Source: Polyangiaceae bacterium
GTDB lineage: Bacteria > Myxococcota_A > Polyangia > Polyangiales > Polyangiaceae
DNA: 64,000 nucleotides
Assembly (NCBI GenBank): GCA_025937895.1
Contig: JAICQL010000011.1
Span: forward strand, 1 to 64,000
Reading direction: 5' to 3'
Shown: positions 512 through 51,591 of the stretch, piece by piece
How the letters are laid out: each line of letters starts with the position of its first letter
Position numbering within the stretch: position 1 is the first letter of the stretch
Notes under the pieces: model-generated
The model's input: the letters and a program-made list of their open reading frames with translations, nothing else
What the model was told of the DNA's origin: nothing
The model's database searches: none
Position numbers and translations under genes: made by a program

Positions 512-946
512 TCACGGAGCGCTGGGCGGCGCAATCAGCGCGCCCACCCGGCGATCGCGCAGGTACAACCCGCCCCACAAGAACACGGCCACGTAGATGG
601 GGAACAGCGTGTGCGTGAACAGCGGGTTCTCCACCCGCACGTGCGTGGCGATGGCACCGCCGAGGTAGCCCGTCCAGAGCACCGCGCCGATCAGCGCCGT
701 GTGCGGCACCAGATAGAACGCCAGGCACACCAGCTGCAGCACCCCCAGCATCGGCAGCACCGCCGCGGGATAGCCGAGCTCCATCGTGCCCTGCACGGCC
801 TCGGGTGCCACCACCAGCTTGAAGACGGCATCGAACGCCAGGAAAAGCACCGCCAGGCCGCTCAGCACGCGGCCGGTCCAGCGCCACGCGGCGCTGCTGG
901 GGAGGGCGACGGAGTTGGACAAGGCAGGGGATGCAGAGAGGGTCAT
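512..946 (-). CDS. DoxX-like four-helix membrane protein
   Basis: This is a protein of about 144 residues with four hydrophobic segments. The first starts near WTGRVLSGLAVLFLAFDAVFK; later ones include VLPMLGVLQLVCLAFYLVP and FPIYVAVFLWGGLYLRDRR. The charged residues in helix one and the overall length fit the DoxX-like family of small inner-membrane proteins, whose role is usually unknown. I chose the ATG at 946 because GGAGA lies eight bases upstream, although the frame stays open to 1066. It lies 116 bp downstream of the mccF-like gene on the same strand, so read-through is possible, but nothing links it functionally to that cluster. Confidence 0.7.
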   Translation of the reverse strand: MTLSASPALSNSVALPSSAAWRWTGRVLSGLAVLFLAFDAVFKLVVAPEAVQGTMELGYPAAVLPMLGVLQLVCLAFYLVPHTALIGAVLWTGYLGGAIATHVRVENPLFTHTLFPIYVAVFLWGGLYLRDRRVGALIAPPSAP

Positions 947-1062
947 TGAGAGTGTCTCCAGTTGGGTAACACTGATTGGACCCTCCGCGCCCGCCGGGCT
1001 CATCGCTCCGGGGTCACCTTTTTCTTCGCCCCAGCCCCAATCGGGCCCCACGACCGAGCGAA

Positions 1063-2127
1063 TCATTGCGGCGCGCTGCGGTCAGGTGCACCGCCGTCCT
1101 CGGTCGGGCTCTCCAGCAAGGCCAACGACAGCGCTCCGGCGTCGAGCTCCGCCAGGGTGCCGATCGGCAAGGTGGTCATCGGCTCCACGTGCCCCACCTC
1201 CAGCCCCAGCAGGATGGGAATGCGGCGCGGCCCCACGCTGCGCTCGATCAGCTCGTCGAGCGCCGCGTCCTCCAGCTCGACCTCCTTCGGAAAGCGGCCC
1301 ACGCCCAGCGCGGCGATCCGCTCCCACACGCCCAGATGCCGGAGCTGCGTGAAGTAGCGGTCGATCGTGCCCGGCGACTCCGTCTCGTCCTCCTCCAGGA
1401 TCAGCACGGCGCCGTCGAGCTCGGGAAAGTAGCGGGTGCCCGCCAGCAACAGCAGGCAGCCAGCATTCGCCACGATCAGCGGGCCGCGGGCTCGGCCCGG
1501 GCGCAAGCAGCGCCGGCTGGAGCCCGGCACCAGCGCGCGCGGCCTCGTATCGAGCTCGTCCCAGCGCAGGCGCTCTTCGATCCAGCCCGGCGCCGCCGGT
1601 ACCGGACCCACGCCCGCCGTGTGCAGAGCTCGCTCGAACCCACTCCACGTGTAAGCGACGGGCCCGCCAAACTCGCCGAACTGTGGCATCAACGCAGGCC
1701 CGTAGAAGCTGACCAGGCGCGCCTGGCTGTACAGCGCGAGCTGGAACGTCGTCGTGTCGCTGTACCCGATGAACGGCTTCGGTCGGGCACGAAGGCGCTC
1801 GAAGGGCAGGTGCTCGAGCAACTGATGCGCCGAGTGCCCACCGATGCTGGACACGATTGCATCGACCTCATCGTCCTCCCACAGCTCCACCAGCGAGCCA
1901 ACGCGCGACTCCACCGAACCCGCCATGTAGCGATGCTGGGCGCGCGCCGCTGCCGGCACGCGCAGCTGATAGCCGAGGTCGCGCAGCGCCTGGCAGCCGC
2001 GCTCGAAGCGCCTGGGCAGCTGCGCGGGTAACGGAGACGACAGCGAGACGATGCCCAGGGTGGAGCCTGGGGCCAGGCGCCTGGGTTTGACGAGTGGGAG
2101 CTGTGGAGAGCGCACGGTGCTGTTCAC
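1063..2127 (-). CDS. mccF: S66 serine carboxypeptidase, MccF-like self-immunity protein
   Basis: This is a 354-residue cytoplasmic protein of peptidase family S66 (LD-carboxypeptidase/MccF). The nucleophile elbow GYSDTT places Ser123. The acid lies in ILEEDE (Glu245/246) and the histidine in LEVGHVEP (His313). As I recall, E. coli MccF uses Ser118, Glu243 and His311, so the spacing is almost identical. MccF enzymes also carry a substrate-binding loop with a Trp; Trp182 here sits at a similar point. MccF cleaves the link between the aspartyl residue and the nucleotide in processed microcin C and protects the producer. The alternative is a peptidoglycan LD-carboxypeptidase. MccF is preferred because the gene follows an mccA-B-E-D-like gene set on the same strand, 129 bp after the preceding gene. 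The start is a GTG with a distant GGAAG. Confidence 0.82.
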   Translation of the reverse strand: MNSTVRSPQLPLVKPRRLAPGSTLGIVSLSSPLPAQLPRRFERGCQALRDLGYQLRVPAAARAQHRYMAGSVESRVGSLVELWEDDEVDAIVSSIGGHSAHQLLEHLPFERLRARPKPFIGYSDTTTFQLALYSQARLVSFYGPALMPQFGEFGGPVAYTWSGFERALHTAGVGPVPAAPGWIEERLRWDELDTRPRALVPGSSRRCLRPGRARGPLIVANAGCLLLLAGTRYFPELDGAVLILEEDETESPGTIDRYFTQLRHLGVWERIAALGVGRFPKEVELEDAALDELIERSVGPRRIPILLGLEVGHVEPMTTLPIGTLAELDAGALSLALLESPTEDGGAPDRSAPQ

Positions 2128-2256
2128 GTTTGAAGGGTCTTCCGGTTTCTGGGGCGTAGTACGTTATCCGGCACCCCCGCACCCGGCACAAGGCCCCTAC
2201 GGCGACGAGCAAGCCTGAGCCTCCTGAGCTTCACTGCGAACTGCAGTGCGCCGCGG

Positions 2257-2916
2257 CTACGCTAGCCACCACCGGACCACTGGGTCTCCACTCTGCAGCG
2301 GCTTGACGTAACGATGCACCTCGTATGGCGACTCCGACAAGCTCGGGTCATAGCTCCTGCCCTGGGCTGCGAACGCCTTACGCACGTTCTGGCGAAGCTG
2401 CGGTGTGACCGAGTCAAGCTTGCGCAAGGCATTGTCGAACGCGTGCTCGGGCTGAAACAGCACGAACGTCCCCGGCACCCCAAGCGTCGACCGCGAGTGG
2501 CTCAGCGGATACGCGGACGATAGCATCAAGACGAAGAAGCGCTGAGGGCCGAAGCGAAACCACCATCCCTTGGTCTCCACGGGCAGAGCCATACAATTGC
2601 GCCCGCATGGGTCCATCGTGGCCATTGCCGTGAGCAACTCACGCAAGAGCTCGCCCAGGTCCGCGATGGACGCAGGCGCAGCCTGTTCGGCGAACTCCAG
2701 CACGTAACCGTCCCAGTCCATTCGCCCGGTCCCCAGAAGGTCCGCCAGGTCAGCCGCCACGCGGGCCGTATTCTCCACGATACTGAAATCCGCCCGCCAC
2801 TCCGGCCCAGCCACATGCGTACCGGCTCGCGCAAACGGGCAAGCGCTGGCATTGGCAATGCGCTCAAAGCGCTGGTTGAGCGGTAGGCTAGCAGCAAAAC
2901 GGCTACTCACCCTCAC
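2257..2916 (-). CDS. YqcI/YcgG-family protein (possible haem-dependent N-oxygenase)
   Basis: This is a protein of about 219 residues with the layout of the YqcI/YcgG family: an early CPFARAG motif (residues 26-32), a central FGPQRFFVLMLSSAYPLSHS strand-turn with paired His-Ser-Arg, then FVLFQPEHAFD and a C-terminal tail with HRYVKP. The family includes GntA, described as a haem-dependent N-hydroxylase in guanitoxin biosynthesis; most members are uncharacterised. The GTG start overlaps the end of the CmoA-like gene by 14 bp, so the two are probably translated from one mRNA. A second GTG two codons on is equally possible. Context suggests an oxidative tailoring step on the peptidyl-nucleotide, or a protective function. 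That role is inferred; the family assignment rests on motif resemblance only. Confidence 0.65.
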   Translation of the reverse strand: MRVSSRFAASLPLNQRFERIANASACPFARAGTHVAGPEWRADFSIVENTARVAADLADLLGTGRMDWDGYVLEFAEQAAPASIADLGELLRELLTAMATMDPCGRNCMALPVETKGWWFRFGPQRFFVLMLSSAYPLSHSRSTLGVPGTFVLFQPEHAFDNALRKLDSVTPQLRQNVRKAFAAQGRSYDPSLSESPYEVHRYVKPLQSGDPVVRWWLA

Positions 2917-3688
2917 CGCCCTTGCGCGCGAGGAATCCCTGGAAATTCATGACCTGGAAGAACGTGCTGACCGCGTCGAAGCCAGCGGACTGCAGCAGCT
3001 GGACGTTTTCGCTCGCAAAGAATGGAATCAGGCGATTTTCCAGCGCCTGGCGCTTGAGGGCGATCTCGGTGTTGGAGTAGCCGACGCTGCGCTTGTAATC
3101 GTGATACCAATCGATGAAGAGCGCGTTGTGGGCCCGGTCTTGCTGCATGACCTTCTCCACCACGATCAGGTGGCCCCCCTGGCACAGCGAGCGGTGGATC
3201 TTGCGCAGAATGCGCTGGCGCTCCATCGGGCGGATGAACTGCAGCACCAGCACGCAGAGCGCTACCCGCACGTTCGACACTCCCAGCGAGCGACGGCCGG
3301 TGAAGTCCAGCTGCTCGAACTCGATATCGTGCTGCCCCATAAAGGGCTGCAGCTTCGTCCGGCACTCGGCGAGCATGGCGGCGGAGGCGTCAACGCCCAA
3401 GTAGTGCAACCGCTCGCCCGAAGCACGGCTGAGCTCTTCCAGCGCAAGGAAGGTATTGCCCGTCGAACAGCCCAGGTCAACGATCGGGCCGCCGCCGCTC
3501 AGCCGCAAGGTCAGCTCCGCCACGAGGCTCTGGAGCAGGCGATAGCCAGGCACGCTACGCGTGACCATGTCATCGAAGACGCGGGCCACACGCGCGCTAA
3601 ACGCGAAGCCCTCCAAGGCGGCCTCGCCGCCATTGGGTGCCGCAAACACCTCATCCCGACTCGGATCCAAAGTCACACAGGCGGACAT
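2903..3688 (-). CDS. CmoA-like carboxy-S-adenosylmethionine synthase
   Basis: This is a 261-residue class I SAM-fold protein that follows E. coli CmoA almost end to end. It has VFDDMVTRSVPGY at 37-49, SAM motif I VDLGCSTGN at 70-78, LQFIRPMERQ at 149-158, and HDYKRSVGYSNTEIALKR at 196-213. The KRxxGYS block corresponds to the CmoA region that binds the carboxylate of carboxy-SAM. CmoA makes carboxy-SAM from SAM and prephenate, normally for tRNA wobble-uridine modification with CmoB, which is not here. In microcin C-like clusters of Bacillus and Yersinia, as I recall, the CmoA-like part of MccS supplies carboxy-SAM for carboxymethylation of the nucleobase. The preferred ATG at 3688 has a strong AAAGGAGAG eight bases upstream and overlaps the preceding gene by 16 bp. 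A longer start at 3712 has no such site. Confidence 0.85.
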   Translation of the reverse strand: MSACVTLDPSRDEVFAAPNGGEAALEGFAFSARVARVFDDMVTRSVPGYRLLQSLVAELTLRLSGGGPIVDLGCSTGNTFLALEELSRASGERLHYLGVDASAAMLAECRTKLQPFMGQHDIEFEQLDFTGRRSLGVSNVRVALCVLVLQFIRPMERQRILRKIHRSLCQGGHLIVVEKVMQQDRAHNALFIDWYHDYKRSVGYSNTEIALKRQALENRLIPFFASENVQLLQSAGFDAVSTFFQVMNFQGFLARKGGEGE

Positions 3689-5163
3689 GCTGGCAACTCT
3701 CCTTTGCTGCATTCAAAAATGAGAAAATACGGTACCTGGCTCGCCTTGCTGAGGTGAGCGCTGGCCGGCAACTCACGCGCCGGTTGGGGCTCTTGCATGC
3801 TGGTGACGACGAAGCCCGCACGACGCAACTCGGCAAAGTAGAAGGGCGGGTTGCGTTTGAAAGACACGACCTCCGCAATGGCGATCGCGCCGTCTTCGGT
3901 ATGGCGTGCCTTGATGACCCGCCCTTCGTGAAAGTAGTCGCTGATCTCCAGTGACAGGTAGCGCTGCTCGCCCGCCACAAAGCGCTCCTTCCAGAAGCCG
4001 GAGTCCTTCAAGGGATGCGGCAACACGACGATCAATCGCCCCCCGGGCCGCAGCGCCTCGTGGCAACGCCGCAGGACATGGCCGCAGTCTTCGATGTGAT
4101 CGAGGACCATGTTGAGCAGCACCAGGTCGAACTCGCTGCCCAGCGGGGCATCTTCCGCCGTGCCGCTCACCACCTCGATTCGCCCAGGCGTGACCCGCTG
4201 CGCGAGGCAGCGCGCAGCTTCTGCCATCGCTGCCGAGGGCTCCAGCGCCAGCACGTCATGGCCCTGTCGTGCGAAGATCGCGCTCGCCTCGCCGGAGCCT
4301 GCGCCCACATCGAGAACGCGCGCCGGCGGCAGGCTTTTTGCCAGCTCCTCCAGATAAGGATCTACCACCAGTGCGTTTAGGGATTTTTGACTTCGCTCGC
4401 GCTGATATAGCTCCGCAATCTCGGAGAAGGCATCGCCTGGCTTGGCCGGGCGATGCGCAGGGGTGTTGCGGACGAACGTGAACTGCAACTGCTCCAGGTC
4501 GAAGTGCAGTGCCCCGTGGCTCGCATGGGTGGGGGTCCGAGCGCTCACGTCAACGAGCTCTTGAACGGCGAGCTCAGCGGCGAGCCCTGCTAGTAAGGCA
4601 GGCGCAGAGACCCGCGCCGGGACGAGCGGTAGCCAGTCCGGCACGAACTCTCCCGTGAAACACGGGCCAACCTGAAAGGAGTTGCGCGTCACGCGGACGA
4701 AGAGGCCCGTCTGCCCCTCACTCAGCTCGCGGCCCTCGTCGGTGATGACCCATGCGGCTTCATCCGCTGAGTCCACGAGCCGTGCCCCCTCCGCTTGCAA
4801 GGCGTCGCGCAGCACCGCTGCGAAGGCTGCGTCCTGACAGCACACCGCCACGGCACGAGAGCCGAGCCGAGCCAGCCGCGCCACCGCAGCCTCGGCTGCG
4901 GCGCCGCTGGCCGGCACCAACGCGGCCTGCGCAACGAGCATTTCCAGAAACGCCCTCTCGGCCTCCGCATCCGCCGGTCGGCAGCGCTCCAGCGCACCCT
5001 GAATCGACTCCGGACAGCCAAAGGAGCTCAATAGCTCGAGCTGCTCCAACGAGGGGCCTTCCAGTGTTAGATCCATACTGCCCAGCCCCAGACGTGCCAG
5101 CAAGCGCCGGCCATTTAGCCACACGCCCCCGGGGACAATGAAACGGCACTGCGTCGTGTCCAT
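3673..5163 (-). CDS. E1-like/peptide-binding domain fused to a SAM (carboxy)methyltransferase
   Basis: This is a 496-residue two-part protein. Residues 1-240 resemble the N-terminal partner of TOMM/E1-like RiPP enzymes: a small winged-helix-like start (to about residue 85) with LTLEGPSLEQLELL, then a degenerate E1-like stretch ending in VGPCFTGEFVP, an APALLAGLAAELAVQEL helix and FDLEQLQFTFVRNTP. No zinc cysteine pairs or nucleotide loop remain. Residues about 265-490 form a class I methyltransferase: motif I VLDVGAGSGE (283-292), acidic end of strand two LALEPS, then LVLLNMVLDHI and LRPGGRLIVVLPHP. It starts 10 bp after the mccD-like gene and overlaps the CmoA-like gene. Its likely job is to bind the precursor peptide and transfer carboxymethyl from carboxy-SAM to the product, a split equivalent of MccS. 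Plain methylation is the alternative. Confidence 0.7.
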   Translation of the reverse strand: MDTTQCRFIVPGGVWLNGRRLLARLGLGSMDLTLEGPSLEQLELLSSFGCPESIQGALERCRPADAEAERAFLEMLVAQAALVPASGAAAEAAVARLARLGSRAVAVCCQDAAFAAVLRDALQAEGARLVDSADEAAWVITDEGRELSEGQTGLFVRVTRNSFQVGPCFTGEFVPDWLPLVPARVSAPALLAGLAAELAVQELVDVSARTPTHASHGALHFDLEQLQFTFVRNTPAHRPAKPGDAFSEIAELYQRERSQKSLNALVVDPYLEELAKSLPPARVLDVGAGSGEASAIFARQGHDVLALEPSAAMAEAARCLAQRVTPGRIEVVSGTAEDAPLGSEFDLVLLNMVLDHIEDCGHVLRRCHEALRPGGRLIVVLPHPLKDSGFWKERFVAGEQRYLSLEISDYFHEGRVIKARHTEDGAIAIAEVVSFKRNPPFYFAELRRAGFVVTSMQEPQPARELPASAHLSKASQVPYFLIFECSKGELPACPPV

Positions 5164-5173
5164 GGCCGGCTCT

Positions 5174-5968
5174 CTAGTTGGAACGCACGTTGAGCACCCA
5201 GCGGCAGCAAGTCTGATAGCGGCGGTTCTCGTTGAAGACCAGTCGGTCCCGGAACAGGCGCACCAATGTTGCTTCGCGCTGCTCTACGCTCAGGCCATCA
5301 AAGCGATGCTGATGGCGAAGCATGTGCGCGACGGCCGCGTCACGGAGTTCGTCCTCGCTGTTGATGGGCAGTGGCTCGACCCATGACTCCGCGACATCGA
5401 AGTGTAGCGCGAAGAACTCGCGCCAAAAGCTGACCGTACGGGCGGGTGCCGGACGATAGCCGAGGCATTGCTGCAAATCGTCCAGTAGTGACGCCGGAGG
5501 GGTGTCGATGTAGGCCAGCGCGGAAACGCACAGCTTGCCGCCGGGGCGCAGCACGCGAGCCGTCTCCGTGAGGGCACGCTCGCGATCGCTGATAAAACCG
5601 AAGCAGCAGCCAGCGACGACGTGCGAGAACTCCCCTGCGCTCCACGGCAATGAAGCGGCGTCACCGATGCGGTAGTCTAACCTGCCATCAAAAATGGGTG
5701 CGATGGACGCTGCACGCGCGGCCGCAATGGACATCGCCGAAAGATCCAGCCCCGCGCCGGTACAGCCGGTGCGGCGCGATATCGTGCGAGAGGAGAAGCC
5801 TGTATTGCACGCCAGATCGAGCACATGGCTGTCCGCCGAAATACCCGCTCGCTCAATCCACCAGGAAATTGTCGGCTCACCCCCTGGAGGTGAGTTGTCC
5901 TGATCGATGAAGGCTACGAAGTCAGGATATGCCATTTGCCAGATCTGCTCTACGCTCTGCACGTTCAT
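5174..5968 (-). CDS. mccD: MccD-like SAM-dependent aminocarboxypropyl/methyl-transferase
   Basis: This is a 264-residue class I SAM protein. Motif I is VLDLACNTGFSS at 49-60, the strand-two acid is in GLDLSAMS, and the post-I region has GDAASLPWSAGEFSHVV and VLRPGGKLCVSAL. It is almost the length I recall for E. coli MccD. MccD moves a 3-amino-3-carboxypropyl group from SAM to the phosphate of microcin C; a PLP enzyme then decarboxylates it to aminopropyl. The ATG at 5968 overlaps the TGA of the PLP decarboxylase by four bases (ATGA) and has GGAGAG upstream, so the two are translationally coupled, as expected for that two-step reaction. A longer start at 6031 would lie deep in the upstream gene. 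Sequence alone does not exclude an ordinary methyltransferase. Confidence 0.7.
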   Translation of the reverse strand: MNVQSVEQIWQMAYPDFVAFIDQDNSPPGGEPTISWWIERAGISADSHVLDLACNTGFSSRTISRRTGCTGAGLDLSAMSIAAARAASIAPIFDGRLDYRIGDAASLPWSAGEFSHVVAGCCFGFISDRERALTETARVLRPGGKLCVSALAYIDTPPASLLDDLQQCLGYRPAPARTVSFWREFFALHFDVAESWVEPLPINSEDELRDAAVAHMLRHQHRFDGLSVEQREATLVRLFRDRLVFNENRRYQTCCRWVLNVRSN

Positions 5969-7263
5969 TGCTGCTCTCCAACATCCAGGCTGTGTTCCAG
6001 CTCTCTGCCGCGCCGCAGTGACGGGCGGCAACCGCGCAGCTCGCCAGCCATCTGGCGCTGCCGGGCCAAAGAGAAGTGTGCTCGGTCCATTGCCACGACC
6101 GGCGCCCGCGGCCGTATCCAGCCGGCGGAGGAGGCGATGTCGTAGCCACCGCAGGCTCCGATCACGAGCAACTCGGCCGCCCTCGGCAAGGCTGCGGCGA
6201 GCAACCGTGGGCTCAACACATCGCTCTCAAAGCAGTTCGCACCCACGAGCACGAAATGCTGCGAGCCCTGCTCGCGTTGCTCGTCCAGGGTATGAATGGT
6301 ATGCCGCCACGAGATGGCCGAGCGAACCAGGGAGGTGCCGGCATCGCAGGCGACGTAGTGCTCCGCGCCACGGCGCTTGCAGGAGATGACGCGAGTAACC
6401 AGCAGGCCTGCGTCCTCCACCAAGCAGCGGCCCGGCTCGACCACCAAGCGCAGAGTCTCCGGATCCAGGCCAATGCGCGTCAGGCTAGCGGCGACGTTGC
6501 GTGCGTACAGCTCTGGCGCGGGCGGGGCGGCGCCACTGGCGGTAGAGGCGGCATAGCCGCCGCCGATGTCCAGGGAGAACTCGGCCCCGGCGTACTCGCG
6601 GAACCAACCGATGACCTCCGCATATGCCTCTATGGCCACGGCGTGCAGGTCCGTGCCGACGTTGGAGCCCACGTGCAGATGAAGGCCTTGCACCTTGCGG
6701 CCCGCCTGCTCCAGGAGGAGCGTGGCCTGAAAGATTTCATCCTCGAACAGGCCGAAACGAGACCAGGTCTGGCCCGGGCGCGGCGTGGCCAGCCGCAACC
6801 GCAGGGTGGACGTGCTGGGAATGGACTGCAGCAAACGTGCGATGGTTGCCGCTTCTTCTACGGAGTCGATCTGGATCTGGATCCCCAGCTGCAGCGCGCG
6901 CGCCAGCTCGGGCTCCAGCTTGCAGGGGCCATCAAAGTAGATGTCCGCCGGTCGAGCACCGTCAGCCAGCGCCCAGTCGAGCTCGATTCCGGATACGACC
7001 TCAGCGCTCGCGCCCTCGTCCAGCAATTGGCCGGTGACTGCCGCGAGCCCGTTGGTTTTGTAGGAGTACGCGACACTGAGCCGCCGGAAGCTCCGCGCCC
7101 ACGCCGCGCGGAAGCTTCGAAAGCGCTCGCGCACGGCGCCTATATCGAGCAGGAAAAACGGCGTTTCCACCATCGACGTAGCGTGGATGACGCGCTGGCG
7201 CTGCGGCTCACTGAGCGGTAACAAGCACGTGTCCGAGTCGGGTGGCGGCGTGGACCCGGTCAC
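5965..7263 (-). CDS. mccE: Fold-III PLP decarboxylase, like the N-terminal half of MccE
   Basis: This is a 432-residue alanine-racemase-fold decarboxylase of the diaminopimelate/ornithine type. Visible sites are the Schiff-base lysine in YSYKTN (Lys69), HVGSN (197-201), the phosphate-binding LDIGGGY (GGG 234-236), EPGR (276-279), the catalytic cysteine in NCFESDVL (Cys344) and GGYD (372-375). In microcin C maturation the N-terminal half of MccE has this fold and completes the aminopropyl group started by MccD. E. coli MccE also has a C-terminal GNAT acetyltransferase for immunity; that half is missing here, and the protein stops at decarboxylase length. The GTG at 7263 overlaps the MccB stop by four bases and has GGAG seven bases upstream. 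A later ATG at 7173 lacks a ribosome site. An amino-acid decarboxylase of primary metabolism is unlikely in this operon. Confidence 0.8.
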   Translation of the reverse strand: MTGSTPPPDSDTCLLPLSEPQRQRVIHATSMVETPFFLLDIGAVRERFRSFRAAWARSFRRLSVAYSYKTNGLAAVTGQLLDEGASAEVVSGIELDWALADGARPADIYFDGPCKLEPELARALQLGIQIQIDSVEEAATIARLLQSIPSTSTLRLRLATPRPGQTWSRFGLFEDEIFQATLLLEQAGRKVQGLHLHVGSNVGTDLHAVAIEAYAEVIGWFREYAGAEFSLDIGGGYAASTASGAAPPAPELYARNVAASLTRIGLDPETLRLVVEPGRCLVEDAGLLVTRVISCKRRGAEHYVACDAGTSLVRSAISWRHTIHTLDEQREQGSQHFVLVGANCFESDVLSPRLLAAALPRAAELLVIGACGGYDIASSAGWIRPRAPVVAMDRAHFSLARQRQMAGELRGCRPSLRRGRELEHSLDVGEQQ

Positions 7264-8342
7264 TCTGCCGCTCCGCTGAGCACCGGGTCGGAGGTCTGCA
7301 ACGCACGGCGCGCAGCTGCCAGAGAGGAGGCGGTGAAATGTATGCGGCTGCTGGCGAGCGTTCGCATATCCACCTCGATCCGCTCGTGAACCAGGATCGC
7401 GCCGCCCAGACAGGGGGCGAGCATGCGCACGGTGGCCTCCAGCAGCAGCCCGGCGGCGGCGCAGTTGATGGCAGCTCCCGACGAGTTCCAGGCGGCGGGG
7501 CGCGCGACCTTGTCCAGAGGGCCGCAAGCCGCAAGCCCACTGGCTCGATCTTGCATTAGCTCCGGCCAAGTCGGGCGAACGTCGGGTAATAGGCAGGGGC
7601 CAATCACCGCGACCCTGCCGAAGTAGCCTGCCATCAACATCGGTACGCCTGCCACGAGCTGCGGGCACCGCCAGATCGACTCGCGCTCTCCGCACACGAC
7701 AACGGCGTCGCAGGCAGGCAAAGCCGCATCCTCGCACGTATCGTGGTCGAGAGTGGACGTCTCGATGTCGAGTTCGGAGAAGCGCTGCCGCAGTGCTCGC
7801 TCCAGCGCGTCGACCTTGAAGGAGCCAATATCTTCGCGAGTAAAGTACACCTGGCGATTTAGGTTGCTCGACGAGACCGTGTCGGGATCGCTCAACACAA
7901 ACTTCTTTACGCCGCTGCCGGCGAGGTTCATCGCCAGGTGGCAGCCAATGCCGCCGGTACCGACGATCAGAACGCGCTTGGGCGCTAGCTCGGCAAACGC
8001 ACGGTCCGGCTGAAAGCGCTGAATGTGGGCAAAGTATGAGAGCTGCCGGCTGCGTGGATCATCGTCCGTGGCTACGGTGGCAAGGGGGCGCGACAGCTGC
8101 ACGAGCCAATCATGCTCCAGGAGTTCCGCCAGCAAGCTCACCATTAGCGGGCTGAGCTGGAGCAACTCGTCGAACGAACGACTGCCGTCGATCAGCTGCA
8201 GCGCCTTCAGGACCTCGCTGCTATTGCGAGTGAATCTGACCTGCCGCTCCGTATCGCGCAACGTTACGCTCGAGCCATGATCGTAGACCTCGAGGGTGGG
8301 CAGCAGCCATGCATAGTTCTGAGTAGCGCTTTGCTCTTCCAT
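7260..8342 (-). CDS. mccB: MccB-like E1/ThiF nucleotidyltransferase
   Basis: This is a 360-residue protein, close to the E. coli MccB length of about 350. Residues 1-85 look like a peptide-recognition winged helix (PqqD-like), with LKALQLIDGSRSFDELLQL. Residues about 120-310 are a ThiF/E1 adenylation domain: GTGGIG (128-133), SDPDTVSSSNLNRQ (151-164) and an Asp (212) where the Mg2+ ligand is expected. MccB attaches AMP (CMP in some relatives) to the C-terminal Asn of its peptide through a succinimide. E. coli MccB has, as I recall, two Cys-x-x-Cys zinc pairs; none is visible here, so this is a zinc-less variant. The ATG has GGAG nine bases upstream, follows the precursor gene by 66 bp and overlaps the next gene by four bases. 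A TOMM or thiazole-type E1 is less likely, because no YcaO or ThiG partner is present. Confidence 0.83.
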   Translation of the reverse strand: MEEQSATQNYAWLLPTLEVYDHGSSVTLRDTERQVRFTRNSSEVLKALQLIDGSRSFDELLQLSPLMVSLLAELLEHDWLVQLSRPLATVATDDDPRSRQLSYFAHIQRFQPDRAFAELAPKRVLIVGTGGIGCHLAMNLAGSGVKKFVLSDPDTVSSSNLNRQVYFTREDIGSFKVDALERALRQRFSELDIETSTLDHDTCEDAALPACDAVVVCGERESIWRCPQLVAGVPMLMAGYFGRVAVIGPCLLPDVRPTWPELMQDRASGLAACGPLDKVARPAAWNSSGAAINCAAAGLLLEATVRMLAPCLGGAILVHERIEVDMRTLASSRIHFTASSLAAARRALQTSDPVLSGAAE

Positions 8343-8360
8343 GATTATCAGCTCCAGCCT

Positions 8361-8389
8361 GGCCCTGGGGGCTTGGTGCCCCCAGAGCC
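8361..8389 (-). promoter_or_regulatory. Hairpin between the precursor gene and mccB
   Basis: An eight-base perfect stem (CTGGGGGC with GCCCCCAG, loop five bases), extended by three further pairs after a one-base mismatch, lies in the 66-bp gap. No T-run follows it on the transcribed strand, so it is not a classical intrinsic terminator. A hairpin here could attenuate transcription or protect the precursor mRNA, giving more peptide than enzyme. In E. coli a terminator between mccA and mccB has this effect. The structure is seen; the function is inferred. Confidence 0.5.
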
Positions 8390-8408
8390 ATTGAAGAAAA
8401 CGCGATCG

Positions 8409-8651
8409 TTAGTTGGACGACGGGATGTCCACCAAGCTGCCGCGATCGAACGGGCGCAACTGCTGCACGCCGAGGATGCTGGCATCGCGAAAGCGCGAGA
8501 GGATGTCCTTCAGCCGCGAGGTGCTCAGGATCGCGCTGTCCGTCACGCGGACCGCGTTGATGGCGCGAAGGTCGGCACCTCCGGTCGCGCCTGCGAGCTG
8601 GCTGTCTTTCAACTCCGGCGCCTCAATCGAATCGTTTTTCGAATCGCTCAT
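8409..8651 (-). CDS. mccA: Microcin C-like precursor peptide with C-terminal Asn
   Basis: This is an 80-residue acidic-to-neutral peptide with no hydrophobic segment. The N-terminal part reads like a RiPP leader and contains KDSQLAGATGG, a double-glycine-type motif ending at residue 25. The C-terminal end is DRGSLVDIPSSN followed by TAA. A C-terminal Asn is the residue MccB enzymes need for nucleotide attachment, and the adjacent gene is mccB-like. The E. coli peptide has only seven residues; precursors of tens of residues are known in Yersinia and cyanobacteria and may need proteolytic trimming. The ATG has GGAGA eight bases upstream. It is the first gene of the run, 160 bp downstream of the YgiQ-type gene's stop. 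I found no clear promoter box in that gap. I did not recognise homologues of this peptide; the identification rests on position, size, motif and last residue. Confidence 0.78.
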   Translation of the reverse strand: MSDSKNDSIEAPELKDSQLAGATGGADLRAINAVRVTDSAILSTSRLKDILSRFRDASILGVQQLRPFDRGSLVDIPSSN

Positions 8652-8810: not shown

Positions 8811-10859
8811 TCAGCGCGGCGCGGGGCGCTGCCCGGTTCTCTGACGGCCGCCGGAAGCGGAGCGGCGCTTGCCGCCCTCGCTCGCGCGGGGCGGACCCAC
8901 TCGATTTGGCGCGGGGCCGCCTCTACGCTCGTGCCGCTCGCGGCGCTCACGGCTGGGCGCCGGGGCACCGGGCAGCGCGGCGATGCCGGCGCGCTCGGCC
9001 GGCACCAGGCAGTGCGAGCCGGAGCCGATCAGATCGCGGCGACCCGCCTGGCGCAGCGCCTCGCGCGCGAGCGGCCACTGCTCTTCATTCCAGTACAGCA
9101 CCAGCGCCTTGAGCTGCCGCTTCTCGCGCAGTGAGCGGACGGTGTGCACCGGCTCGAGGGTGAACGGGTCGAAGCCGGAGTAGTACATGGCCGTGGCCAT
9201 GGCCATGGGCGTGGGGATGAAGTCCTGGATCTGGCGCGGCTTGAGCTTGTTCTGCTTCAGGTACAGCGCCAGCTGGATGGTGTCGGGGATGCCCGAGCCG
9301 GGGTGGCCCGTGATCAGGTACGGGATCAGGTACTGCTGCTTGCCCGCCTCCTCGCTCGCCTGACAAAAGGCCTGCGCGAAGCGCTCGTAGTGCTCGATGG
9401 GCGGCTTCTTCATCTTGTCGAGCACCGTGGTGTCGTTGTGCTCGGGCGCCACGCTGAGCTGGCCGCCGGTGTGATGGCGCGCCATCTCCCTGATGAAGGT
9501 GGGGCTGCGGTTGGCCAGGTCGTAGCGCACGCCAGAGGCGATGAACACGCGCTTCACGCTGCTCTCGGCGCGCACCTTGCGCAGCAGATCGATCAGCGGC
9601 TGGTGATCGGTCTCGAGGTTCTCACAGATCTTGGGGTGCACGCAGGACAGCCGGCGGCAGGCGTTCTCGATGCGCTCGCTCTTGCAGCGCATCTGGTACA
9701 TGTTCGCGGTAGGGCCGCCCACGTCGCTGATCACGCCGCGGTAGTCCGGCATGCGCGAGAGCGCGCGCACCTCGCGCAGCACGCTATCGGCGCTGCGGCT
9801 CTGGATGACCCTGCCCTCGTGCTCGGTGATGCTGCAGAAGCTGCAGCCGCCGAAGCAGCCGCGCATGGTCACGATCGAGTGCTTGACCGTCTCGAACGCG
9901 GGCACGGGCGCCTGGTAGTCCGGATGCGGCTCGCGTACGAACGGCAGATCGTACAGCTCGTCCATCGCTGCCTCGTCCAGCGGCGCGGCGGGTGGATTGA
10001 AGTACACGGCTTGCTTGCCGTAGACCTGCAGCAGCGGCCGTGCGTTGCCCGGGTTGGTCTCTTTCTGGAAGATGCCGCTCATGCGAGCAAACGCCAGCTT
10101 GTCGGCGCTCACCTCCTCGAAGGAGGGCAACACCACCACCTTGCCGTCGGTGACGTAGCGGCTCGGGTCCGCCGCGATGGGCTGCCAGGCCTCGGGGTTA
10201 TCCAGCGCGTACGCCGTGCCCGGGATGTCGCGCAGCGCGGCCACGGGCTCGCCCGCGGCGAGGCGGCGCGCGATCTCCCACACGGGCCGCTCGCCCATGC
10301 CGAACACCAGCAGGTCTGCCTTGGCGTCCAGCAGGATCGAGCGGCGCAGCTGATCCATCCAGTAGTCGTAGTGCGCGATGCGACGCAGCGAGGCCTCGAT
10401 GCCGCCCAGCACCACGGGCACCCCGGGGAAGGCCTGTCGGCACAGGTTGGAGTAGACGATCGTCGCGCGGTTGGGGCGGCGGTTGGGCTCGCCCCCGGGG
10501 CTGTATTGATCCTCGGCGCGCACCTTCTTCTGCGCCGTCAGCTTGTTCAGCATCGAGTCCAGATTGCCGGCGCTCACCCCCACGAACAGCCGCGGCGTCC
10601 CCATGCGCGCGATGTCCGCCACCGAGCGCCAGTCGGGCTGAGCGATGAAGCCCACCCGGAAGCCCCGCGCCTCCAGGAAACGTGCGATCAGCACTGGCCC
10701 GAAAGCCGGATGATCAACGTAGGCGTCGCCGCTGATGATCAGGATGTCGAGCTGGTCCCAGCCCCGCGCTTCCATATCCTCGCGGCAGGTCGGGAGAAAC
10801 GCGCTGCGCGGAGTAACCCGGCGGCCGTTTTTCGAGGTACGGAGCGAAATGGTAGGCAC
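8811..10859 (-). CDS. YgiQ-family radical SAM protein
   Basis: This is a 682-residue protein of the YgiQ type. The N-terminus has FLPTCREDMEARGWDQLD and ISGDAYVDHP, a B12-binding-like region typical of the family. The iron-sulphur motif is CFGGCSFC (Cx3Cx2C) in the middle, followed by a radical SAM barrel and a basic, low-complexity, Arg/Gly-rich C-terminal tail of about 60 residues. YgiQ proteins are widespread but have no settled substrate. I kept the first ATG because FLP and the following motif belong to the conserved start. It is upstream of and co-directional with the precursor gene, but separated from it by 160 bp and of a housekeeping family, so I do not count it in the mcc-like cluster. 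Confidence 0.88.
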   Translation of the reverse strand: MPTISLRTSKNGRRVTPRSAFLPTCREDMEARGWDQLDILIISGDAYVDHPAFGPVLIARFLEARGFRVGFIAQPDWRSVADIARMGTPRLFVGVSAGNLDSMLNKLTAQKKVRAEDQYSPGGEPNRRPNRATIVYSNLCRQAFPGVPVVLGGIEASLRRIAHYDYWMDQLRRSILLDAKADLLVFGMGERPVWEIARRLAAGEPVAALRDIPGTAYALDNPEAWQPIAADPSRYVTDGKVVVLPSFEEVSADKLAFARMSGIFQKETNPGNARPLLQVYGKQAVYFNPPAAPLDEAAMDELYDLPFVREPHPDYQAPVPAFETVKHSIVTMRGCFGGCSFCSITEHEGRVIQSRSADSVLREVRALSRMPDYRGVISDVGGPTANMYQMRCKSERIENACRRLSCVHPKICENLETDHQPLIDLLRKVRAESSVKRVFIASGVRYDLANRSPTFIREMARHHTGGQLSVAPEHNDTTVLDKMKKPPIEHYERFAQAFCQASEEAGKQQYLIPYLITGHPGSGIPDTIQLALYLKQNKLKPRQIQDFIPTPMAMATAMYYSGFDPFTLEPVHTVRSLREKRQLKALVLYWNEEQWPLAREALRQAGRRDLIGSGSHCLVPAERAGIAALPGAPAPSRERRERHERRGGPAPNRVGPPRASEGGKRRSASGGRQRTGQRPAPR

Positions 10860-14297: not shown

Positions 14298-15176
14298 TTG
14301 ATCTGGAGCCGTCACGCGCTGGGCTGGGTGCTGCTGCTGCCCGCCGCCACTTTGTTGCTCGGTCTGCTCGCCTACCCGCTCGGGCTCGGCGTGTGGCTGG
14401 GCTTCACCGACGCCAAGATCGGCCGCCCTGGCGAGTGGATCGGCCTCGAGAACTTCGAGTACCTGATCACGGACAGCGTGGTGCAGCTGGCGCTGTTCAA
14501 CACGCTCTTCTACACCCTGCTGGCCAGCGTGCTGAAGTTTGGGCTGGGGCTGTGGCTGGCGCTGCTGCTCAACCGGCGGCTGCCCTTCCCGTCGTTCTTC
14601 CGTGCCGTGGTGCTGCTACCGTGGATCGTCCCCACCGCGCTCTCGGCCATCGCCTTCTGGTGGCTGTATGACGCGCAGTTCTCGGTGCTCTCCTGGTCGC
14701 TGAAGAGCGCCGGGTTGATCGAGGAGCCCATCAACTTCCTGGGCGACCCGTGGAATGCCCGCTACTCCACCATCGCGGCCAACGTCTGGCGCGGCGTGCC
14801 GTTCGTGGCCATCTCACTGCTGGCGGGGCTGCAGACCATCTCGCCCTCACTGTACGAGGCCTGCGCCATGGATGGCGCCAGCGGCTGGCAGCGCTTTCGC
14901 CACGTCACCCTGCCCTTGCTCTCCCCGATCATCGCCGTGGTGATGACCTTCTCGGTGCTGTTCACGTTCGGAGATTTTCAGCTCATCTATGTGCTCACGC
15001 GCGGCGGTCCGCTCAACGCCACCCACCTGCTGGCCACCCTGGCGTTCCAGCGCGGCATCAGCGGCGGCGCGCTGGGAGAGGGCGCAGCGCTGGCCACCTT
15101 GATGGTGCCCTTCTTGCTGGCGGCGGTGATGTTCAGCTTCTTCGGCCTGCAGCGGCGAGCATGGCAGAAGGCTTGA
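14298..15176 (+). CDS. Sugar ABC permease, MalF/UgpA type
   Basis: This is a 292-residue inner-membrane protein with six predicted helices and the EAA loop EACAMDGASGWQRFRHVTLP (residues about 190-210), which contacts the ATPase. It begins at a TTG, giving MIWSRHALGWVLLL, where the first helix starts at once. No other start keeps that helix. Its TGA overlaps the ATG of the second permease by one base. Confidence 0.9.
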   Translation: MIWSRHALGWVLLLPAATLLLGLLAYPLGLGVWLGFTDAKIGRPGEWIGLENFEYLITDSVVQLALFNTLFYTLLASVLKFGLGLWLALLLNRRLPFPSFFRAVVLLPWIVPTALSAIAFWWLYDAQFSVLSWSLKSAGLIEEPINFLGDPWNARYSTIAANVWRGVPFVAISLLAGLQTISPSLYEACAMDGASGWQRFRHVTLPLLSPIIAVVMTFSVLFTFGDFQLIYVLTRGGPLNATHLLATLAFQRGISGGALGEGAALATLMVPFLLAAVMFSFFGLQRRAWQKA

Positions 15177-48673: not shown

Positions 48674-49939
48674 ATGCGCATTTTTCTGCGAGGACGGGGC
48701 CGTGCGCTGGCCGCAGCGCTGGCGGGCGCGGCGCTGCTGCTGGCCTGCACTTCCGGGGAGCCAGCGCCGCCCGGTCGAGTCGCTCGGGCGAGCGCGGCGC
48801 TGACCCCGAAGAGCGCCGTGCACTGGGTGGGCGCCTGGTCCGCCGGGCCTCAGCTGACCGAGCCGCAGAACCTGCCGCCGGCTCCGGGCCTGAGCGGCAA
48901 CACGCTGCGGCAGCTCGTGTTCCCCACCCTGGCGGGCAGCCGTGTGCGCCTGCGTTTGTCGAACGAGTTCGGCGACGCTCCGCTCACGGTCCACGGCGCG
49001 CAGCTGGCGCTGCCGGCCGCGCAGGGCGCCATCGCCAGCGCGAGCGCTCGCGCCGTGCGCTTCGGCGGCAGCCCGAGCTTGACCCTCGCTGCAGGGCAAG
49101 CGGTGTTCTCCGATCCACTCGACTTCGAGCTGAAGGCGCTCGCGCCGCTGGCCATCACCCTGCATCTCGGCACCGTGCCCGGCAACGTCACCGGCCATCC
49201 CGGCTCGCGCACGACCTCGTACCTGGCGGCGGGCGGGCAGCTCGAGGCCGCCGCCCTGTCCGGCGCGGTCACCACCGATCACTGGTATTTCATCAGCGGG
49301 CTCGACGTGCAGGCGCCGGAGCGCAGCGCGGCCATCGTCACCCTGGGTGATTCGCTCACCGATGGGCGCGGCTCCACCGTCAACGGCAACAATCGCTGGC
49401 CTGACATGCTAGCTCGCCGCCTGCAGGCGCGGCCGGAGACGGCGCACCTGTCGGTGCTGAACCTGGGCATCGGTGGCAACGCGGTACTGAGAGGCGGCCT
49501 TGGCCCCACGGCGCAGCAGCGCTTCCAGCGTGACGTGCTGGAGCAGCGCGGGGTGCGCTACGTGATCGTGCTGGAGGGCGTGAACGATCTCGGGGGCAGC
49601 GACGACGCCAGCGTGGCCGAGCGCCTGATCCAGGCCTACGAAGGCTTCATCGAGCGCGCGCATGCGCAGGGATTGCTGGTGTACGGCATCCCCATCCTGC
49701 CCTTTGGCGGATCCATGTACGATAGCCCGGAGCGCCAGCGAGCACGACAGCTCGTCAACGACTGGATTCGCAGCAGCGGCCGCTTCGACGCGGTGATCGA
49801 TCTGGACGCGGCGCTGCGCGATCCGGCAAGCCCCGAGCGGCTGCAGGCCTCGTACGCCACCCAGGATCTCCTGCACCTGAGCCCGGCGGGCTACCAGGCC
49901 ATGGCAGACGCGATCGATCTGAGCCTGTTCGTACGCTAG
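48674..49939 (+). CDS. SGNH/GDSL hydrolase, predicted lipoprotein
   Basis: This is a 421-residue protein with a signal peptide and lipobox ALLLAC (Cys25). A beta-rich N-terminal region (about 45-210) precedes the SGNH domain: block I TLGDSLTDGRG, block II around NLGIGGNAVLRGG, block III VLEGVNDLGG, and block V DLLHLSPAGYQ. Serine, Asp and His of the catalytic site are present. It is probably an extracytoplasmic esterase; the substrate is unknown. It converges on the Ser/Thr kinase gene, whose corrected end is 7 bp away. Confidence 0.87.
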   Translation: MRIFLRGRGRALAAALAGAALLLACTSGEPAPPGRVARASAALTPKSAVHWVGAWSAGPQLTEPQNLPPAPGLSGNTLRQLVFPTLAGSRVRLRLSNEFGDAPLTVHGAQLALPAAQGAIASASARAVRFGGSPSLTLAAGQAVFSDPLDFELKALAPLAITLHLGTVPGNVTGHPGSRTTSYLAAGGQLEAAALSGAVTTDHWYFISGLDVQAPERSAAIVTLGDSLTDGRGSTVNGNNRWPDMLARRLQARPETAHLSVLNLGIGGNAVLRGGLGPTAQQRFQRDVLEQRGVRYVIVLEGVNDLGGSDDASVAERLIQAYEGFIERAHAQGLLVYGIPILPFGGSMYDSPERQRARQLVNDWIRSSGRFDAVIDLDAALRDPASPERLQASYATQDLLHLSPAGYQAMADAIDLSLFVR

Positions 49940-49946
49940 CCGCCGC

Positions 49947-51591
49947 TCAGCCGCGCGCCGGCTTCACCACCCGCACCGGCCGCGCCTCCTGTGAGAGCAC
50001 CACGTCCGCGAGCGGCCGCTGGCTGGTCTTGCCGGGCAGGTGCCGGCTCCACCAGTCTTCGGCTCGCTCCGGCGTCCACGGGTGCTGGAGTGGGATGGCC
50101 TGCAGCCTCGCCTGCAGCTCCCGCGCGCTGCCGGGGCGCTGCGCTGGAGCTTTCGCCAGGCACTCCAGGATCAAAGCGTCGAGCTCGGGCGGGATCGTGC
50201 CGCCCGCGCGCGACGAGGGCGCCGGGGGGCGCCGTGTGGATGTGATCGGACATCACCTTGATGGCGCCCGGGCCCTCGAAGACCAGCTTGCCAGTGAGCA
50301 GCCAGTAGGCGACGCAGCCGAGCGCGTACAGGTCCACGCGCTGATCCGTCTCTACCCCCAGCACCACCTCGGGCGCGATGAAGCCGGGGGTGCCGCTCAC
50401 GTGATTCTCCCCGCTCAGCTTCAGCTCGTCCGCCTGCGGCGTGTTGCCCAGCTTGACCAGCCCGAAGTCGAGCACCTTGACGAAATCCCACGCGGCGCCG
50501 ACCCGACTGACCACGATGTTGGCGGGCTTGATGTCACGGTGCACCAGCCCGTTCTGGTGCGCGTCCTGCAGCGACGCGCACACCTGCACCAGCAGGTGCA
50601 CGGCGCGCTCCGGCGGGACGGGGCCAAACTGCTCCACCAGGGTCTCCAGATCCATCCCATCCAGCAGCTCCATCACGTAGTAGAACGTGCCGTCGTCCGT
50701 GACGCCAAAATCATAGAGCTGCACGGTGTGCGGCGACTTCAGGCCGGCGGTGGCGCGCGCCTCGCGCTCGAAGCGGCGCAAGCGCAGCTCCGGATCGCGC
50801 CCGGCCAGCGACGCCAGCTCCTGGTTGCGGATGAGCTTCACCGCCGCGGGGCGGATGAGCAGGCGGTGGCGAGCGCGCCAGACCTCACCCATGCCGCCGC
50901 TGCCGATCTTCTCCTCCAAGGTGTACTGGCCGATCTGTGAGGCCTCTTTCACCTGCTGGCGCAAGCCATAGATGGTGCGCGAGGTGACCGTGGCCAGGGT
51001 GGTGGCGATGATCAGCCAGAGCAGCGCGTTCACCGTGACCAGCGCCTCGAGGAACCGCGGCGGAAAGCCGGGCAGCTGCAGCGGCTGGTGATACACCATC
51101 GACACGATCAGCAGCGGTGCCGCGGCGATCCACGACAGGCAGAACGTGCGCCCGGCGGTGGATGGGATCAGCACCGCGCGCGCCATCATCGTCACCGCCA
51201 GCGCGAACATGCCGCGCATCAGCTGCTCCGGAGCGGGCTGGGCGGCCATCGCCGCCAGCCCGACGCCCGCCAGCAGCAGGCTGCCGGCATCGAGCAGCCC
51301 CAGCGTGCGCAGTGACCAGGAGCCCAGCCTGGCGCACAGCCAGAGCGTGGCCATCACGCTGCACGCCAGCAGGTGGAACAGGTTGGTCTGGGTCAACAGC
51401 AGCGGCAGCGCCGCCCGCCCGCCGCCCACGAGCAGCAAGCCGTTCATCAGCGAGAAGAAGCCGAACGACAGCAGGAAGACGGTCTTGCCCAAGAGCGCCA
51501 GGCGCTCCTGCACGAAGGGAGACCCGCCCCAGGTATCGAATCCGGCGCCGATCAGCGGCAAGCCACGGGAAGAAGAGCCAGCTCGGGTCAC
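49947..51591 (-). CDS. Membrane Ser/Thr protein kinase with a frameshift near its 3' end
   Basis: The corrected product has about 547 residues. Six hydrophobic helices (about 37-205) lead into a Hanks-type kinase: glycine loop IGSGGMGEVW (229-238), Lys252 in AAVKLI, catalytic HRDIKPAN (351-358), DFG (375-377) and the APE-like FIAPEVVLG. The frame is intact to HIHTAPP, then shifts at a run of six Gs on the plus strand (50224-50229). Removing one base restores APSSRAGGTIPPELD and the rest of the C-lobe, ending at 49947. Without correction the ORF would run to 49936 with a meaningless tail and lose the last helix. Homopolymer sequencing error is the simplest explanation; phase variation is the other. 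It follows the AraC gene after 21 bp. Confidence 0.82.

Follow-up and report, generated by a model that had tools for sequence, protein, structure and literature searches.

Microcin C (McC)-type compounds are "Trojan horse" peptide-nucleotide antibiotics, natural products that inhibit an aminoacyl-tRNA synthetase. Near the start of contig JAICQL010000011.1 of a Polyangiaceae bacterium (assembly GCA_025937895.1), one row of genes resembles the mcc genes that make such compounds. Does this row encode a microcin C-type pathway, how would its product be decorated, and how would the product leave the cell? The DNA analyzed, hereafter the window, is the first 64,000 nucleotides of the contig. On its minus strand, the open reading frame (ORF) list contains eight co-oriented genes, running from position 8651 to 1063 (Table 1); all eight frames are open. 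The locus is a real, atypical microcin C-type cluster, as seen in its gene content, homology, gene order, partial conservation in relatives and the asparagine (Asn) at the end of its precursor. Judged from the sequence, the eight genes quite probably work as such a cluster, the likely product being an aminopropylated peptidyl-nucleotide inhibitor of aspartyl-tRNA synthetase (AspRS).

From mccB to the YqcI-like gene, neighbouring frames overlap by 4, 4, 40 and 14 bp or sit 10 bp apart; the gaps are 66 bp between the precursor gene and mccB and 129 bp between yqcI and mccF. A first-pass annotation, made from the letters of the DNA, had claimed nine genes; we count eight, and a DoxX-like gene lies outside the cluster coordinates. 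Every gene type that it named is present at the place and strand given there. Its statements that the genes from mccB to yqcI overlap or lie within 10 bp of each other, that the precursor ends in Asn and that the cluster contains no exporter were all borne out.

Table 1. Coordinates of the cluster, its neighbours and related ORFs at other loci
Feature	Position	Strand	Evidence or remark
MccA-like precursor, 80 aa, end ...DIPSSN	8409-8651	-	ORF
Predicted double-glycine leader, residues 1-25 (LKDSQLAGATGG)	8577-8651	-	kept in P0028
MccB-like E1 nucleotidyltransferase, 360 aa	7260-8342	-	best PDB matches MccB, 2e-18
MccE-like pyridoxal phosphate (PLP) decarboxylase	5965-7263	-	29.6% over 399 aa to E. 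coli MccE, 8e-48
MccD-like 3-amino-3-carboxypropyl transferase	5174-5968	-	35.4% over 246 aa to E. coli MccD, 4e-58
496-aa fusion: N-terminal ~240 aa + C-terminal S-adenosylmethionine (SAM) methyltransferase	3673-5163	-	Pfam Methyltransf_11 at 284-379
CmoA-like carboxy-SAM synthase (predicted MccS role)	2903-3712	-	TIGR00740 196.1 bits, equivalog cut-off 193.3
YqcI/YcgG-like predicted heme-thiolate N-oxygenase, CPF motif at Cys26	2257-2916	-	PF08892 28.0 bits, cut-off 27
MccF-like S66 immunity peptidase	1063-2127	-	29.7% over 330 aa to E. coli MccF
DoxX-like gene	512-1066		after mccF, outside cluster coordinates
Radical SAM gene	8811-10859		upstream of cluster
Asn-ended ORFs upstream of MccB-like genes	L100:10061-10354, L095:10098-10292, L103:8636-8953, L006 upstream of 9719		A-x-A

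MccB-, MccD-, MccE- and MccF-like proteins

Among solved structures, MccB ranks first for the window E1 protein, ahead of eukaryotic E1 (from 4e-15), E. coli ThiF (1e-12) and MoeB (8e-11). Compared to MccB of the E. coli reference cluster (pMccC7-H22, NC_010257.1), it is 31.8% identical over 170 aa. The first-pass annotation had named a grouping with ThiF/MoeB housekeeping enzymes as the result that would speak against it; in a midpoint-rooted tree of 56 hand-picked sequences and 260 columns, with outgroup names mostly presumed, the window E1 clusters with MccB of E. coli and of Helicobacter in a group of 29 sequences (local support 0.96), apart from the other E1 sampled. Within this group, it belongs to an 18-sequence subgroup (0.999) of myxobacterial and metagenomic sequences and one from Bradyrhizobium; the remaining sequences, presumed to be ThiF/MoeB-like, fall outside the MccB group. 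These comparisons support an MccB-type enzyme, distinct from ThiF and MoeB. E1 relatives in metagenome data are 59-86% identical; in their alignment, P0002-P0017 were kept, and the window itself (P0001) and the weak, ThiF/MoeB-like P0018-P0026 were left out. Cys-x-x-Cys pairs are still kept in some of the relatives P0012-P0016.

The MccD-, MccE- and MccF-like proteins match the E. coli cluster over nearly their full length, with E values of at most 8e-48. Only the N-terminal half of MccE has a counterpart in the decarboxylase, which lacks a GNAT domain; in NCBIfam the decarboxylase is nearest to diaminopimelate decarboxylase, below the cut-off (178.9 vs 297.9 bits). Its start codon is uncertain, as the GTG overlaps the mccB stop and one in-frame ATG is located at 7173. 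Motif conservation extends to SYK in the decarboxylase, to YPDFVA..QDN.PPG in the MccD-like protein and to the Ser, Glu and His triad motifs in the MccF-like protein. The first-pass annotation had also counted a placement of the S66 protein with LD-carboxypeptidases against its reading; among PDB entries MccF is ahead (4.4e-44), and the LD-carboxypeptidases reach 1e-22 at best. By sequence, both genes of the aminopropylated subgroup, MccD and the MccE decarboxylase, are present. The MccD-like protein matched 38 plasmid records, 27 of them from Escherichia, and many of these accessions also match MccB. On one Peribacillus psychrosaccharolyticus plasmid (L120:51-9308), a MccD-like gene lies beside asparagine synthetase A and S66 peptidase genes, together with two alanyl-tRNA-ligase-like genes, ATP-grasp and major facilitator superfamily (MFS) genes and no annotated ThiF; these genes may make a related aminoacyl-nucleotide by a non-ribosomal route.

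Own genome included, E1 homologues were found in 2 of 59 near relatives, 3 of 183 genomes of the order, 4 of 317 of the class and 6 of 377 of the phylum; these sets overlap, and with 4 to 35 first-look candidates scored per genome, misses are possible. Genome G308 has A-B-D-E-F plus a further methyltransferase of 441 aa. For the E1 of G308, a 332-aa frame without internal stop was used; the search counted one TGA within the E1 match. The 441-aa protein (L100:4616-5941) adjoins the A-B-D-E-F genes; its C-terminal domain is 22-29% identical to MccD-like proteins and its N-terminal part is novel. G172 carries A, B, F and one methyltransferase that is only distantly MccD-like (identity of 25% with E. 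coli MccD across 149 aa and of 28% with the MccD-like protein of the window). In G441 the E1 locus is at a contig end; in G319 GNAT-like frames, judged by eye, flank E1. One more E1 match, in G361 (E 9e-26 in the genome search), is outside the five relatives inspected. The viral-contig scan gave seven loci with E1 relatives, of which L085/L086 (MccB plus MFS) and L084 look mcc-like; the genome-contig scan covered the best 80 of 408 matches, mostly distant E1 proteins.

CmoA-like, fusion and YqcI/YcgG-type proteins

The top PDB match of the CmoA-like protein is 4gek (3.5e-36), and it aligns with CmoA structures through the KR motif, whose Arg we take to bind the carboxylate. Since MccD and CmoA are already assigned, the fusion methyltransferase is the remaining candidate for carboxymethyl transfer; by elimination, it is a predicted carboxymethyltransferase. 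Its methyltransferase domain spans about residues 270-390. Residues 163-237 show a collinear likeness to the C-terminal part of the E1 family, and the match is not significant (hhalign E 0.055, probability 1%); the idea that the N-terminal 240 residues are one decayed E1 half, as after descent from an MccB fusion, was set aside on this ground and kept as a possibility. Searches of plasmid CmoA-like genes (four regions), two named genomes and 219 genomes of an actinobacterial order did not find a reference mcc carboxymethyltransferase.

Several other arrangements were seen. In the metagenomic relative P0010, the N-terminal part of E1 is joined directly to one stretch resembling the tail of the fusion methyltransferase, as would result either from chimeric assembly or from loss of an internal segment in the relative's cluster. 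On Paenibacillus (L116:5986-10266) and Scytonema (L117:4974-6663) plasmids, CmoA-like genes adjoin DNA cytosine methyltransferase genes; PDB entry 8yf3 is, by its title, a DNA cytosine carboxymethyltransferase, and by analogy these gene pairs may carboxymethylate DNA. On the Burkholderia stagnalis plasmid (L118:4778-10923), one short ORF, a DUF692 iron protein, a CmoA-like protein, a large methyltransferase and a radical SAM protein are encoded in a row, suggestive of a further peptide pathway that may include carboxymethylation.

The predicted fold of the YqcI-type protein is AglA-like: its model has a predicted local distance difference test (pLDDT) value of 74, and AglA fills the five best rows in Foldseek and VIA. 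Within the CPF motif, Cys26, the candidate axial ligand, is kept in all nine covering rows of the alignment, the tenth row being a fragment; P0029 (99%) was excluded from this alignment (A3) as the window's own. The metagenomic relatives are 55-79% identical. Among the 59 near genomes, the family occurs in one, the own genome; because it is missing from the other near relatives searched, the gene probably arrived with the cluster. The plasmid search gave no YqcI match. By matching contig size, no YqcI relative could be paired with an E1 relative in the metagenome data: the precursor P0028 and the E1 piece P0010 each come from three contigs, the longest of 3124 bases, and the E1 relative P0006 (35.5-kb contig) has no partner among the YqcI matches. 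In our literature searches, no heme enzyme adding oxygen to nitrogen was found in the microcin C family.

Precursor, leader and export

The precursor gene adjoins mccB. Besides the window's own, a single relative was found, P0028 (83 aa), which is 54% identical; the Gly-Gly pair, the last six residues (DIPSSN) and the RPFDR segment are identical in both. The predicted leader matches the pattern L-x4-L-x2-[small/hydrophobic]-x-GG, which we take to be the double-glycine leader consensus; one of 566 small ORFs in the window matches strictly, and residue shuffling expects 0.28. The own genome has six C39 matches, four of them in open frames of 733-768 aa, and the neighbourhoods of two of these four frames contain a double-glycine-leader ORF. 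The small ORFs in question are located at L126:1290-1463 and L129:939-1214, with no mcc gene seen there. Export of the precursor in trans by one C39-type transporter is plausible from these sequences. As described in the relevant parts of the sources, the minimal mcc gene set includes an export gene (PMC9239234), and the leader of Yersinia McC is removed through TldD/E (PMC10885120).

Asn-ended ORFs were also found upstream of other MccB-like genes. Four of them have a signal-peptide-like start, namely L100 (97 aa), L095 (64 aa), L103 from Bradyrhizobium (105 aa) and L006 from Pseudomonas PS862 (77 aa), as called by eye from hydropathy and A-x-A; near these four E1 loci no obvious exporter was seen. 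They are possible Sec-routed microcin C precursors. Among the six loci of the E1 subgroup with upstream DNA, five have such an ORF (the window, L100, L094, L103 and L006) and L101, with 216 bp upstream DNA, has none; among 32 control E1 genes, four have one (Fisher 0.0014, or 0.005 when the window is left out). The groups were defined after the fact, and the 31-aa ORF at L094 is doubtful. In a broader set of 14 mcc-like loci, seven have, within 500 bp, an ORF of 20-130 aa that ends in Asn and seven do not, a size range that would miss 7-aa precursors; with L101 added, 7 of 15 loci compare to 4 of 32 controls (Fisher 0.023). Our literature searches, which were not exhaustive, gave no precedent for Sec- or double-glycine-type microcin C precursors.

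Contig base 1 is the window start. Flanking genes are present on both sides, so an mcc gene missing beyond the contig edge is unlikely. The longest frame of the DoxX-like gene overlaps the mccF stop by 4 bp and may share its transcript; it is faced by one plus-strand frame (97-438). Residues 20-623 of the radical SAM neighbour are 70% identical to one protein in the genome of locus L046 (uncultured Myxococcales bacterium), which makes a myxobacterial host likely. The GC content of the cluster is 65.2% vs 68.8% across 10-64 kb, and the bin comprises 425 contigs totalling 8.57 Mb. In one rough hydropathy scan of 57 heuristically called genes, with a crude caller that may miss genes, only two (14298-15176 and 49936-51591) have at least three predicted helices.

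Proposed product, alternatives and known systems

We propose that MccB would link the C-terminal Asn to a nucleotide as an isoasparaginyl phosphoramidate, and that MccD and the decarboxylase would attach an aminopropyl group at the phosphate. Carboxy-SAM made by CmoA would be the donor with which the fusion methyltransferase carboxymethylates the base; given base carboxymethylation, cytidylate is the likelier nucleotide. The YqcI-type enzyme may act by N-hydroxylation of a guanidine, for which an arginine of the conserved RPFDR segment is the most plausible site. A C39-type transporter from another locus would remove the leader behind Gly-Gly during export, and MccF would protect the producer. 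The predicted product is likely an aminopropylated, probably carboxymethylated peptidyl-nucleotide, perhaps N-hydroxylated on peptide arginine. In the sections of PMC12250964 and PMC9239234 that treat McC, the known route runs from Asn activation through a succinimide to phosphoramidate linkage with a nucleotide, with aminopropylation and base carboxymethylation; the target cell takes up and processes the compound, which inhibits AspRS, and carboxymethyl genes accompany cytidylate in the known cases.

Several observations weigh against this proposal. Position 219 of the window E1 is Glu in all 17 rows of the E1 alignment; it is Asp, which we take to be a metal site, in E. coli and H. pylori MccB. 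The window E1 is also without the Cys-x-x-Cys pairs of E. coli MccB; due to both changes, the nucleotide chemistry could differ. The YqcI-type protein passes Pfam by one bit, it has no relevant PDB match at the sequence level (the one row, RO60, is spurious), its model has no Foldseek row at E 0.001, and it was seen adjoining mccB in this window only. Relatives of the fusion protein occur in two other genomes of the 377 and cover the methyltransferase part only (residues 276-489 and 238-469); its single-sequence model has a pLDDT of 35. Among the window genes, profile scan and hydropathy revealed no exporter gene within the cluster or beside it. Completeness of the genome bin is 91.8%, with 7.7% contamination. 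Conservation of the gene set, whose absence the first-pass annotation had counted against its own reading, is partial: G308 and G172 keep part of the set, whereas the other three of the five inspected relatives (G052, G441 and G319) carry E1 only, with no mcc partner in BLAST.

N-hydroxylation of peptide arginine, by analogy with the characterized enzymes, falls a little short of what we would call probable. Instead, in a microcin C-type cluster, the YqcI-type enzyme might act on the aminopropyl amine or one nucleobase nitrogen, or have another role such as payload inactivation; we hold this rather unlikely. Six bacterial family members are characterized and AglA binds a phosphonate-bearing substrate, as far as the family is covered in PMC12866846, and yqcI overlaps cmoA, which leaves room for another substrate. 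However, the reactions described in the corresponding parts of PMC12866846 and PMC10849742 are on guanidines, and the RPFDR arginines are kept in both precursors. A decaying or unfinished cluster with no exported product is improbable. It would fit the missing linked exporter, the unusual fusion protein and the patchy distribution (among the 59 near genomes, E1 is found in the own genome and G052 only); however, no frame is broken, and the existence of metagenomic relatives of both E1 and YqcI suggests selection. Very improbable, in our opinion, is that the E1 forms a different bond, with neighbours recruited for other tailoring: the ThiF-like enzymes of ribosomally synthesized and post-translationally modified peptides are chemically diverse in the examples given in PMC12250964 and PMC12150305, and the Asp to Glu change would agree with this, whereas the tree, the Asn end and the presence of MccD-, MccE- and MccF-like partners, which act on peptidyl-nucleotides in known systems, argue for MccB chemistry. 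That housekeeping ThiF/MoeB, LdcA and methyltransferase genes are chance neighbours here, as the mostly generic Pfam and NCBIfam names of the cluster proteins taken alone might suggest, has a negligible chance, being contradicted by the E1 tree, the PDB ranking, the E. coli comparisons, the overlapping frames and the partial co-conservation in G308 and G172.

Taken together, the microcin C-like reading, which the first-pass annotation had proposed, gains support from the first rank of MccB and MccF among solved structures, the E. coli matches and the partial recurrence in relatives. A wider reading is tentative, possible rather than probable: that the cluster represents one deep branch of peptidyl-nucleotide antibiotics, in which a heme-thiolate N-oxygenase would hydroxylate a peptide arginine and an export signal in the precursor would replace the dedicated pump, with a double-glycine leader in the window and Sec-type signals in G308, G172, the Bradyrhizobium plasmid and Pseudomonas PS862 leading to exit by general secretion machines. 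If true, one peptidyl-nucleotide, from an MccB branch separate from those studied, would combine N-oxygenation with aminopropyl and carboxymethyl decoration, and this would widen the chemistry of the class; a YqcI/YcgG enzyme working on a ribosomal peptide could be obtained, and precursors with built-in export signals would explain working exporterless mcc clusters. In our literature searches, no mcc precedent was found for the heme N-oxygenase, the extra domain of the methyltransferase or the leader-for-exporter arrangement. The layout, called unfamiliar at first, stays unusual in the YqcI-type gene, this extra domain and the exporterless double-glycine leader, whereas the split carboxymethyltransferase has a precedent in the isolate described in part of PMC12250964.

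The first-pass annotation had placed known clusters mainly in enterobacteria, Bacillus and cyanobacteria; however, one myxobacterial mcc cluster, that of Hyalangium minutum, is already published (PMC7157772). Like the window, it has a myxobacterial host and longer MccA peptides (36 and 46 aa). Different from the window, it has a linked C39-peptidase ABC exporter, two A-B pairs and MccH, and no MccD, MccE, CmoA, MccF or YqcI is named in the part of PMC7157772 that describes it. E. coli microcin C (pMccC7-H22) shares MccB, MccD, the MccE decarboxylase and MccF with the window; its 7-aa precursor, MFS exporter and MccE GNAT half have no counterpart there. Like AglA and other YqcI/YcgG heme-thiolate N-hydroxylases, the YqcI-type protein has the predicted fold and the CPF cysteine near the N-terminus; the members named in the family sections of PMC12866846 and PMC10849742 belong to the argolaphos, guanitoxin, chalkophomycin, D-cycloserine, miharamycin and ambocidin pathways, none acting on a ribosomal peptide. 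The Bacillus clusters for carboxymethyl-cytidine McC also have carboxymethyl genes, with an unfused carboxymethyltransferase in one B. subtilis isolate; MccD, MccE and YqcI are not named for them in the corresponding part of PMC12250964.

Compared by description, in the cluster accounts within PMC9239234, the mcc clusters of Yersinia pseudotuberculosis and Nocardia vaccinii differ from the window in that their MccB carries the carboxymethyltransferase as its C-terminal part and in having MccC, whereas the window has a separate methyltransferase with another N-terminal domain, MccF-like immunity and the YqcI-type gene. Dual decoration has its precedent here: like the window, both clusters encode an Asn-ended MccA, MccB, carboxy-SAM synthase, a carboxymethyltransferase, which in the window is a predicted one, MccD and MccE1, and their predicted decoration set is the same as that of the window.

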